This document shows, piece after piece, positions 4,055 to 5,703 of a DNA stretch of 64,000 nucleotides. Where the stretch lies: NCBI RefSeq assembly GCF_014196835.1, contig NZ_JACIEK010000001.1, forward strand, positions 1,252,283-1,316,282. Reading direction: 5' to 3'. The notes under the pieces were generated by a model. It had not been told where the DNA came from. It saw nothing but the letters and a program-made list of their open reading frames with translations, and made no database searches. The translations under genes and the position numbers were made by a program. Every line of letters starts with the position of its first letter. Positions within the stretch are counted from its first letter, which is position 1. This DNA comes from Aureimonas pseudogalii (GTDB lineage Bacteria > Pseudomonadota > Alphaproteobacteria > Rhizobiales > Rhizobiaceae).

Positions 4055-4702
4055 CTACTGGGCCGCTTCCACGAAGCTGGCGCCCCGCGCCTCGGAGCCG
4101 ATCTCGCGACCGGGCGCGACGCCCTCGGCGAGACGGCGCGCCGCCAGCGGCAGGTCGGAGGGGCCGGCGACGAAGACGCGCGTCGAGGGGTGGAGCAGCG
4201 CGGCAAAGGCGGAATCGACGACGCCGGCGGCCGAGATCGCCTGGATGCTCGATCCCGCGGGCAGGTCGATCTGCTTGATGAGGCAGAGGGTCGAGCCGGG
4301 AATGCGGCTGGCGAGCCAGGCGGCGAGGCTGTCGGAGGTGACGCTCCAGGTGTGCTCGATCTCCTCGGCCCGCAGCACGAGCTTGGCGGGCATCCAGACG
4401 GGGACCTGCCCACGCCCCTGCGCCGCCTCGATCGCCTCGATCGTGCTGGCGGCGACGAGCTTCTCGCCGAGGCTCACCAGCGCGTGGCCGAACTGCTCGA
4501 TCGCCAGAATCGCCATGCGATGCGCGGCGTCGGCGTCGTAGCCGATGCGGGTCTGGAACTGGCGTACCGTGTTGGCGAAGGGGCCACCGCCCGGCACGAC
4601 GACGAGAGGACGGGTCGAGCGCTCGATCGACTGCACCCATTTGCGAAGATCGGGAGAGGCGATCGAGCTTCCGCCGAACTTGACGATCAGCATGTCCTTC
4701 AT
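4055..4702 (-). CDS. Amino-acid-kinase-fold protein, probably MfnE-like kinase for methylofuran synthesis
   Basis: 215 residues from ATG 4702, which has GGAG nine bases upstream; the longer frame has no ribosome site. The glycine-rich kinase start VKFGGSSIAS lies at residues 7-16, and VVVPGGGPFANTVRQF at about 34-49. The AHRMAILAIEQFG segment follows; it is typical of the MfnE-like branch of the aspartokinase/uridylate kinase fold. In methanogens MfnE phosphorylates aminomethylfuran-methyl phosphate during methanofuran synthesis, and methylotrophic bacteria keep homologues with their C1-cofactor genes. The MfnB-like/FolB gene lies 128 bases upstream on the same strand, which supports this role. 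General assignment to the kinase fold is firm; the substrate is inferred. Confidence 0.72.
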   Translation of the reverse strand: MKDMLIVKFGGSSIASPDLRKWVQSIERSTRPLVVVPGGGPFANTVRQFQTRIGYDADAAHRMAILAIEQFGHALVSLGEKLVAASTIEAIEAAQGRGQVPVWMPAKLVLRAEEIEHTWSVTSDSLAAWLASRIPGSTLCLIKQIDLPAGSSIQAISAAGVVDSAFAALLHPSTRVFVAGPSDLPLAARRLAEGVAPGREIGSEARGASFVEAAQ

Positions 4703-4830
4703 CACCGCTTCTCCGATCTTTCCGTCATACGCCACAGCAAGCACACGTCGCGCGCCCACTTTGGACAAATTTCCGGCGCTTTGCAAAGTTCCAACCGAAC
4801 GTCGCTGCGCTACAGCATTCTCTCGTCGTT

Positions 4831-5703
4831 TCAAGCCGTTATCCGGTCGTCCCTATCGCGCCGGATCTCGATACCGACGGCTTCGGGGCCGAGATCGAGC
4901 TTCTCGACGCGCACCGTCACGGCGGCCACCCGCCCGTCCATCAGAAGCTCGGCCGCCAGTTCCTCGGCCAGCGTCTCCACCAGATCGGTGTGGCCGCGCT
5001 CGGCGAGGCGGCGGATCGCGTCGGTCACGATGTCGTAGGAATAGACCTCGTCCATGCGGCGCGGCACGCCGCCGGGGCGGCGCACGTCGGCCTCGACGCA
5101 GAAGCGCAGGCGCTGCGTACGGGCGTGCTCGAACCCGTAGGCCCCGATCTGGAAAGGCACGGTGAAGTTGGTGACGAGCACCCGGTCGGTCGGCGCCGCG
5201 GCGTCGAAGCGCCGGTCGGCCGAGACGATGCGCCCGGCCGCGGCCAGCGTCTCGCCGTCCAGCCCCTCGAAGACGAGGGCGCCCGGCCGCACTACGAGAA
5301 GCCGCGGCACGTCGGGCAGCTCGAGCGCGCCGCCGAGCCAGGCCTCGACGCCGGCGCGCGCGCAGGCCGCGACGAAGCCGGCCACCTGCTCCAGCGTGAA
5401 GACGCGCAGCAACGCGCGTTCGGGATCGAGAAGCACGGCGGCATAGCCCCCGCCCTCCACGCCGGCGAGCGCCTGCAGGCTGCGGATGCGCGCCACGCGC
5501 AAGGGCTCGGCCGGCATCGTCTCGTCGCCGGCGATGGCGAAAAGCAGTTCGGGCTCGTCCGGCTCGGCGAGGCGATCGGGCACCGCGAAGCGCGGGCGCT
5601 CGCGCCGCGCTGGCGCCAGCACCAAGTCCGCGCCGTTCTCAAGCGCTTGGCGCGCCTCCTCGGGCGAGCCGACCGCGACGGCGAGACGCGAGCGCCGGCT
5701 CAT
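4831..5703 (-). CDS. Fusion of a degenerate MfnB-like domain with dihydroneopterin aldolase (FolB)
   Basis: 290 residues in two parts. Residues 1-170 follow the layout of the MfnB (4-HFC-P synthase) TIM barrel: AVAVGSPEEARQALENGAD, a central AAVLLDPERALLRVF and a C-terminal glycine-rich end. They contain no lysine at all, so the Schiff-base lysine of MfnB is missing. Residues 174-290 are a full FolB domain: FQIGAYGFEHARTQRLRF, YSYD (tyrosine of the pterin site), LVETLAEELAAEL and VRVEKLDLG keep the expected Tyr, Glu and Lys. FolB makes 6-hydroxymethyl-dihydropterin for folate and tetrahydromethanopterin. With the MfnE-like kinase downstream, a C1-cofactor role is likely. The first domain may be regulatory or structural. 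Confidence 0.72.
   Translation of the reverse strand: MSRRSRLAVAVGSPEEARQALENGADLVLAPARRERPRFAVPDRLAEPDEPELLFAIAGDETMPAEPLRVARIRSLQALAGVEGGGYAAVLLDPERALLRVFTLEQVAGFVAACARAGVEAWLGGALELPDVPRLLVVRPGALVFEGLDGETLAAAGRIVSADRRFDAAAPTDRVLVTNFTVPFQIGAYGFEHARTQRLRFCVEADVRRPGGVPRRMDEVYSYDIVTDAIRRLAERGHTDLVETLAEELAAELLMDGRVAAVTVRVEKLDLGPEAVGIEIRRDRDDRITA

Follow-up and report, generated by a model that had tools for sequence, protein, structure and literature searches.

Positions 4,055 to 5,703 of a 64,000-nucleotide stretch of Aureimonas pseudogalii DNA (contig NZ_JACIEK010000001.1), hereafter the window, encode a protein in which an MfnB-like domain is joined to a dihydroneopterin aldolase (FolB) domain, followed by a kinase resembling MfnE. 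The interval given in an earlier, sequence-only reading covers both genes (Table 1). They were compared across a set of 25 genomes, comprising 21 Aureimonas genomes (the genus; G000 to G020, wherein G000 is the genome of the window), three genomes of the same family (G035 and the small genomes G025 and G026), and one of the same order (G040).

Table 1. Features of the window at and beside the MfnB-FolB fusion.
Feature	Coordinates	Strand	Basis or remark
MfnB(pseudo)-FolB fusion gene P0001, 290 aa	4831-5703	minus	Pfam, predicted structure; sole FolB-family match in genome
P0001 N-terminal half, residues 1-171	5191-5703	minus	Shortened, remodelled MfnB-like barrel without catalytic lysines (predicted)
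P0001 C-terminal half, residues 172-290	4834-5190	minus	Dihydroneopterin aldolase (FolB) domain; E192/Y223/E243/K268 kept
MfnE-type amino-acid-kinase-family protein P0002, 215 aa	4055-4702	minus	Pfam, NCBIfam; matched in 21/21 genus genomes
Small stand-alone Lrp/AsnC ligand-binding (RAM) protein, 96 aa	5746-6036	minus	Upstream neighbour of fusion

The C-terminal half of P0001 is matched by the Pfam FolB model (PF02152) over residues 176 to 281 with 58.1 bits (cut-off 31.8), and residues 172 to 286 of a predicted structure superimpose on dihydroneopterin aldolase with VIA-align Z scores of up to 16.6 (1sql_C). The active-site Tyr, Glu, and Lys that the sequence-only reading had recognized in this half are indeed conserved. 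Aligning P0001 with 22 relatives shows E192, Y223, E243, and K268 unchanged throughout. In an alignment to 3r2e, Y223 and K268 correspond to Tyr53 and Lys98 of the Yersinia enzyme, which are the residues mutated in 7su4 and 7su6.

The N-terminal half is a weak match to the Pfam MfnB model (4HFCP_synth, PF04476), which scores 24.0 bits against a cut-off of 22.4 and covers only residues 69 to 145. In an AlphaFold2 model of P0001 built on the same 23-sequence alignment (mean predicted local distance difference test score, or pLDDT, 85.2; predicted template-modeling score 0.81), residues 4 to 161 superimpose on the MfnB protein MJ1099 (4rc1_H) with a Z score of 13.8, a root-mean-square deviation of 2.9 A, and 21% identity over 136 aligned residues. 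This is the best match outside the FolB half among the 50 listed VIA-align rows; a second MJ1099 structure (4u9p) scores 13.5, and the other barrels listed score lower (PdxJ 11.3, TenI 11.2, CutC 11.1). The best 50 Foldseek rows contain only FolB-like and GTP-cyclohydrolase I entries and no MfnB chain. As modelled, the N-terminal half is homologous to the MfnB fold, but it has only seven strands (residues 6-10, 27-31, 52-58, 68-73, 89-92, 120-123, and 142-146) and lacks the helices after strands 2 and 3, whereas the model of an intact fusion from G005 (pLDDT 88.8) has a complete barrel of eight strands and eight helices. The five intact Aureimonas fusions run to 344-368 residues, which exceeds the 290 of P0001 by 54 to 78. 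In the comparison with MfnB that had been proposed as a check, the predicted half thus resembles a reduced MfnB barrel, and the claim that it follows that barrel in order and length is not confirmed.

We take the catalytic set of MfnB to be D25, K27, K85, D151, and K155. These MJ1099 positions were mapped by aligning MJ1099 with the intact fusion of G040, and the corresponding columns were read in 112 rows (the 25 genomes, 80 loci from named genomes, and seven further stretches). One of these residues, K155, is named in PMC11365854. P0001 retains only the equivalent of D151 (D93), and its first 175 residues contain no lysine, as originally noted. That the catalytic lysine of MfnB is gone is also correct, and it extends beyond this protein: none of the 16 degenerate copies in the genus has a lysine at the K27, K85, or K155 column, and the D151 equivalent is kept in all of them except G003. 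We rejected the complete absence of lysine as a defining trait of these copies, since the N-terminal half has none in seven of the 16 and one or two in the other nine, compared with four to eight in the five intact fusions of the genus.

All five catalytic residues are present in 71 of the 112 rows. Among the 80 named loci, 62 are intact, two (L108 and L111) are cut by a contig end, 12 (L093-L104) are copies of the degenerate clade, and four (L133, L140, L165, and L169) are damaged outside that clade.

The state of the MfnB half matches the content of one-carbon (C1) genes. Mch was found in seven of the 25 genomes (G005, G011, G013, G014, G017, G035, and G040), and Fae in the same seven plus G006. 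Intact PF04476 scores (198-225 bits) occur in exactly the seven Mch genomes, and the other 18 score approximately 20 to 32 bits. Within the genus, the five genomes with Mch carry an intact MfnB half (198-209 bits) and the 16 without Mch carry a degenerate one. In the genome of the window, searches for Fae and Mch gave no match and the sole MfnB-family match is the degenerate half of P0001, such that, apart from the kinase, none of the other C1 genes sought (Fae, Mch, and an intact MfnB) was found; fhc genes were not searched for. This is the gene content by which the sequence-only reading had said it would be refuted, the kinase itself excepted.

This association was also examined in 397 genomes of the order, wherein the genus is represented only by G000 and the kinase was called at E <= 1e-10 with at most seven candidates scored per genome. 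Mch was found in 77 genomes, the kinase in 76, and both in 75. The only kinase carrier without Mch is G000, and two genomes (G156 and G422) have Mch but no kinase match. A PF04476 match without Mch occurs in 19 genomes of the sample, G000 included. Five further genomes without Mch (G025, G026, G247, G291, and G431) also retain fusions with a damaged MfnB site, and the kinase was not found in any of the five. The fusions of G247, G291, and G431 (L199, L200, and L201) are full length with changed catalytic positions (DERDK, DTKDK, and LKVDK vs DKKDK), and judging from these changes they are perhaps further fusions stranded by pathway loss, at earlier stages. In G025 and G026 (L061 and L062; genomes of 2.0 and 1.1 Mb), the fusion has a decayed MfnB half and there is no MfnE-type kinase match. 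A separate, divergent PF04476 protein (53-70 bits) is present in G279 (L203:4052-4816) and other Mch-less genomes of its genus; it is an open frame of approximately 255 residues in several of them, and the one copy aligned has no catalytic lysines.

Turning to folate synthesis, 38 genomes were searched for the FolB family (E <= 0.01), and nothing but the fusion was matched in any of the 21 genus genomes or in G025, G026, and G040; G035 carries the fusion and one further match. Each of 13 other genomes of the family has one FolB match of 99 to 122 bits. The folP and folK genes are neighbours (-15 to +36 bases) with no folB between them in 21 of 21 genus genomes and lie within 45 bases of each other, again with no folB between, in G025, G026, and G035. 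In contrast, the order is folP-folB-folK in eight of eight control genera of the family (those of the 13 with loci returned). G040 is uncounted in this comparison, as the stretch taken from it holds no folP, and a second stretch from G035, around its extra FolB match, gave no match to the G023 queries. Because folP and folK adjoin without folB throughout the genus and the fusion is the sole FolB match, canonical folB would have been absent from the genus ancestor before C1 genes were lost in one branch. No candidate for the FolB step other than the fusion was found, although no search aimed at an unrelated bypass enzyme was made. HPPK (FolK) is present in 25 of 25 genomes, and we therefore rejected the kinase as a substitute for FolK.

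Fusions of this kind are widespread in Alphaproteobacteria. To place P0001 among them, we kept the best 80 of 136 relatives from a scan of named genomes, which come from Aurantimonadaceae, Rhizobiaceae, Phyllobacteriaceae, Methylocystaceae, Beijerinckiaceae, and other families. Many of them have the kinase directly after the fusion, and the flanking sequence that was fetched contains fae, mch, or further genes of the C1 cluster. On a Phyllobacterium plasmid, for example, genes for formylmethanofuran dehydrogenase are among the annotated neighbours along with fae and mch, and the record calls the fusion (5-formylfuran-3-yl)methyl phosphate synthase. The proposal that the fusion joins the furan and pterin arms suits these pathway-bearing relatives but not the genome of the window. 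In G037 (L204:3589-5407), mfnB, folB, and the kinase are unfused, in adjacent and overlapping open frames, an order that is probably that of the ancestral operon from which the fusion arose. A fusion frame on a plasmid of Sinorhizobium sp. BG8 (L003:11308-12774, which is not part of the catalytic column count) lacks the starting D25/K27 motif despite nearby fae and mch, which could reflect a frameshift.

A tree of rpoB from the 25 genomes (support values are paired) unites the 16 Mch-less genus genomes in one clade (85/89), sister to the five pathway genomes (99/94), with G025 and G026 as a separate pair beside G035. Within the degenerate clade, G003 and G007 branch together outside the other 14. 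A kinase tree of 53 rows, which includes 31 of the 80 named loci but not G007 (the locus fetched was too short to reach its kinase), groups the 20 genus kinases as a single clade (100/99) within Aurantimonadaceae. Kinases from three records named as Aureimonas (A. glaciei, A. endophytica, and strain Leaf427) fall outside this group. Because the genus kinases form one clade, the tree points to vertical descent of the pair, and the sequence data fit a single C1 loss within the genus. Horizontal gain of the pair by the degenerate clade receives no support from the kinase tree. In the A. endophytica locus (L140), the MfnB half is damaged (EALEP), the kinase is divergent, and a relative of the hydantoinase-like gene of the C1 cluster lies nearby; the locus may represent a separate or half-finished loss.

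We reasoned about the state of the MfnB half from the ratio of nonsynonymous to synonymous substitution (dN/dS, or omega), which was calculated by NG86 for 14 of the 16 degenerate copies. For the 16 pairs with the most similar kinases, omega is 0.048 to 0.344 for the MfnB half, 0.068 to 0.307 for the FolB half, and 0.013 to 0.147 for the kinase. Bootstrapped values for the degenerate MfnB half in five pairs range from 0.069 (0.025-0.147) to 0.341 (0.222-0.496), with all upper bounds below 0.5, and two intact pairs give 0.179 and 0.193. The degenerate MfnB half is under purifying selection and is not neutral debris; neutral decay is disfavoured because omega is only 0.07 to 0.34 in the five degenerate pairs. 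Mean dN for the MfnB and FolB halves, a rough measure given that many pairs are distant, is 0.372 and 0.242 in the degenerate copies (91 pairs, ratio 1.53) and 0.312 and 0.200 in the intact copies (10 pairs, ratio 1.56). The corresponding means for the kinase and FolB half are 0.198 and 0.242 in the degenerate set versus 0.113 and 0.200 in the intact set, and the kinase is thus less constrained relative to FolB in the degenerate set.

The 14 degenerate copies all agree at 43 of the 171 positions of the MfnB half, and 19 of these carry a residue never seen in seven intact copies, compared with 48 invariant positions of 119 in the FolB half, only two of which carry a residue absent from the intact copies. 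The newly fixed residues include L29 and P31 (vs D25 and K27 in this alignment), W122 in place of an invariant Gly, R100 in place of Asp, and R33, R34, R36, and R44 in the former active-site loop.

The kinase P0002 lies just downstream, as the sequence-only reading had it, and is of the MfnE type. It matches the amino acid kinase family (PF00696) with 47.5 bits (cut-off 24.9), and its best NCBIfam match is MfnE (NF040622) at 75.1 bits, below the cut-off of 300. This model matches 23 of the 25 genomes and reaches its cut-off in none of them, pathway carriers included. In the 16 kinases aligned, the sequences retain core motifs of the MfnE type: all have the glycine-rich motifs and most have a TSD(S/T)-like motif (TSDS in 15 of 16), although the substrate-side motifs are altered in some copies, among those aligned G009 and G012. 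Neither the MfnB product nor a furan substrate for the kinase is expected in this genome. The kinase is the least explained part of the locus, being conserved though its usual pathway is absent. On the Phyllobacterium plasmid, the kinase gene (L002:15792-16430) is annotated as dihydroneopterin aldolase although its sequence is kinase-like, a misannotation that probably derives from the neighbouring fusion.

The surroundings of the pair were compared in 12 of the 15 other degenerate genus genomes (G002, G004, and G015 were left out). In the window itself, Pfam matches on one flank identify the Lrp/AsnC protein together with a hydrolase of the alpha/beta type, a protein resembling flavin reductase, and a nicotinate phosphoribosyltransferase, and urease genes lie on the other flank. 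The order flavin reductase-like gene, AsnC-type gene, fusion, kinase, ureD, and ureA is held in 12 of 12, with 3.4 kb between fusion and kinase in G007, and the hydrolase and phosphoribosyltransferase are each present in 10 of 12. The Lrp/AsnC protein adjoins the fusion upstream in all 12 and is part of the locus, but it is not shown to be part of its function.

From these comparisons we consider it likely that P0001 is a folate FolB bearing a repacked and selected pseudo-MfnB domain that was left behind by loss of the C1 pathway, accompanied by an orphan kinase. Its ancestor would have been an ordinary MfnB-FolB fusion of a methylotrophy gene cluster (for tetrahydromethanopterin, or H4MPT, and methylofuran). 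In the genus ancestor, where gene content indicates that the canonical folB of folP-folK was absent, the FolB half of the fusion would have come to be the cell's sole FolB. The C1 pathway would then have been lost in one branch of the genus, in which fae and mch are not found, but the fusion could not be lost with it because folate synthesis presumably needs its FolB half. Freed from furan synthesis, the MfnB half would have lost the equivalents of D25, K27, K85, and K155 along with one strand and several outer helices, while the surroundings of its former active site acquired fixed residues new to the family (judged from the alignment, Leu and Pro replacing the Asp-x-Lys motif, a Trp replacing a Gly of the barrel, and several Arg). 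This half now most likely supports the structure or assembly of the FolB half, and possibly contacts the kinase as well. The Leu, Pro, and Trp residues at or near former catalytic positions favour such a structural role, and the fixed arginines leave a phosphate-binding role open. The earlier suggestion that the dead MfnB half could be a scaffold remains a good guess.

Several observations weigh against this explanation. The folB equivalog model (TIGR00525) scores P0001 at 45.3 bits, below its cut-off of 72.15. An unrelated enzyme, for example of the PTPS-III type, could bypass FolB. The register of the active-site loop is uncertain, wherein one alignment places L29 and P31 opposite D25 and K27 and another places a Leu opposite K27, although neither puts a lysine at the D25/K27 loop of P0001; residues 34 to 45 of the predicted model also have pLDDT values below 50. 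The 14 copies compared for selection share ancestry, and some of their fixed residues may merely be inherited, while G003 and G007 were left out of that analysis. The kinase tree places the degenerate G003 row weakly with the intact genomes (86/53). G006 lacks Mch but has a Fae, albeit a divergent one (145 bits, vs approximately 231-234 for the best matches of the others). This Fae homologue (G006:C23:292611-293087) may act outside the H4MPT pathway. Finally, if FolB alone mattered, there would be no explanation for a kinase kept in 21 of 21 genomes.

An alternative that we regard as unlikely is that the MfnB half and the kinase have been jointly re-employed, either to carry out a different reaction or to sense some phosphorylated metabolite, with an Arg-rich loop (R33, R34, R36, R44, and R100) and a new kinase substrate. 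It would account for a kinase whose match persists throughout the genus with motifs largely kept, for the standing of G000 as the sole Mch-less genome among the 76 kinase carriers of the order sample (which holds one genome of this genus), for the conserved six-gene order despite the gap in G007, and for the new arginines. However, the Leu, Pro, and Trp substitutions suggest packing, and the changed substrate-side motifs of some kinases (G009 and G012) also count against it. A more specific form seems doubtful, wherein the repacked, Arg-rich barrel binds or senses either a phosphorylated metabolite or the kinase itself and thereby ties folate synthesis to kinase control through the only dihydroneopterin aldolase.

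It is similarly doubtful that the MfnB half is decaying baggage for which no clean deletion has yet been fixed, with the kinase likewise a leftover. Catalytic positions have been lost differently in several separate Mch-less genomes, as relaxed selection would give, and several helices of the N-terminal half are gone from the P0001 model. Baggage is nevertheless difficult to reconcile with the bootstrapped omega values, with an MfnB:FolB dN ratio that does not exceed that of intact copies, with the 19 newly fixed residues, and with the low omega of the kinase. The proposal of the sequence-only reading, that methylofuran or methanopterin synthesis is still active here as a modified or regulated branch, is very improbable. 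We rejected it since searches for Fae, Mch, and another MfnB gave no match and the MfnB catalytic lysines are absent, even though the FolB residues and kinase core motifs are kept and pathway carriers have the same pair in their C1 clusters.

The components of this system are already known, in that the MfnB-FolB fusion, both protein families, and loss of the C1 gene set have precedents. Orf22 and Orf21 of Methylorubrum extorquens are described in PMC8141765 as homologues of MfnB and MfnE, and a search of its text found neither FolB nor dihydroneopterin; loss of the C1 gene set is discussed in PMC5020050. With MfnB (4-HFC-P synthase; MJ1099, PF04476, Orf22), P0001 appears to share the order and a homologous, if incomplete, fold in its N-terminal half, and descent from intact fusions, but it differs in its missing lysines, its reduced barrel, and a genome without Fae or Mch. 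With FolB (PF02152) it shares the fold and the Tyr, Lys, and Glu residues, but unlike the classical enzyme it is fused behind a pseudo-MfnB domain, is encoded away from folP-folK, and scores under the folB model cut-off. The fusions of alphaproteobacterial C1 clusters (e.g. Phyllobacterium, Rhizobium, Methylocystis, and Aurantimonas) have the same domain order and downstream kinase; the named loci with fae in the fetched flank are intact at the five catalytic columns, except for the contig-cut L111, whereas the MfnB half of P0001 is dead and the C1 genes are gone. P0002 resembles MfnE ([5-(aminomethyl)furan-3-yl]methyl phosphate kinase; Orf21) in family and core motifs, but no furan substrate is expected for it, and it falls below the equivalog cut-off, as do the kinases of pathway carriers. 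No report of a pseudo-MfnB domain or of FolB capture was found in the open-access literature searched.

The locus thus appears to be a natural capture of a housekeeping FolB by a fusion from an accessory pathway, wherein loss of that pathway leaves the partner domain as a selected pseudoenzyme. The damaged-MfnB fusions of other Mch-less genomes make such capture and stranding testable by comparison. For annotation, the name (5-formylfuran-3-yl)methyl phosphate synthase on proteins of this kind is no proof of methylofuran synthesis. The conserved orphan kinase, in turn, hints at an unknown reaction.

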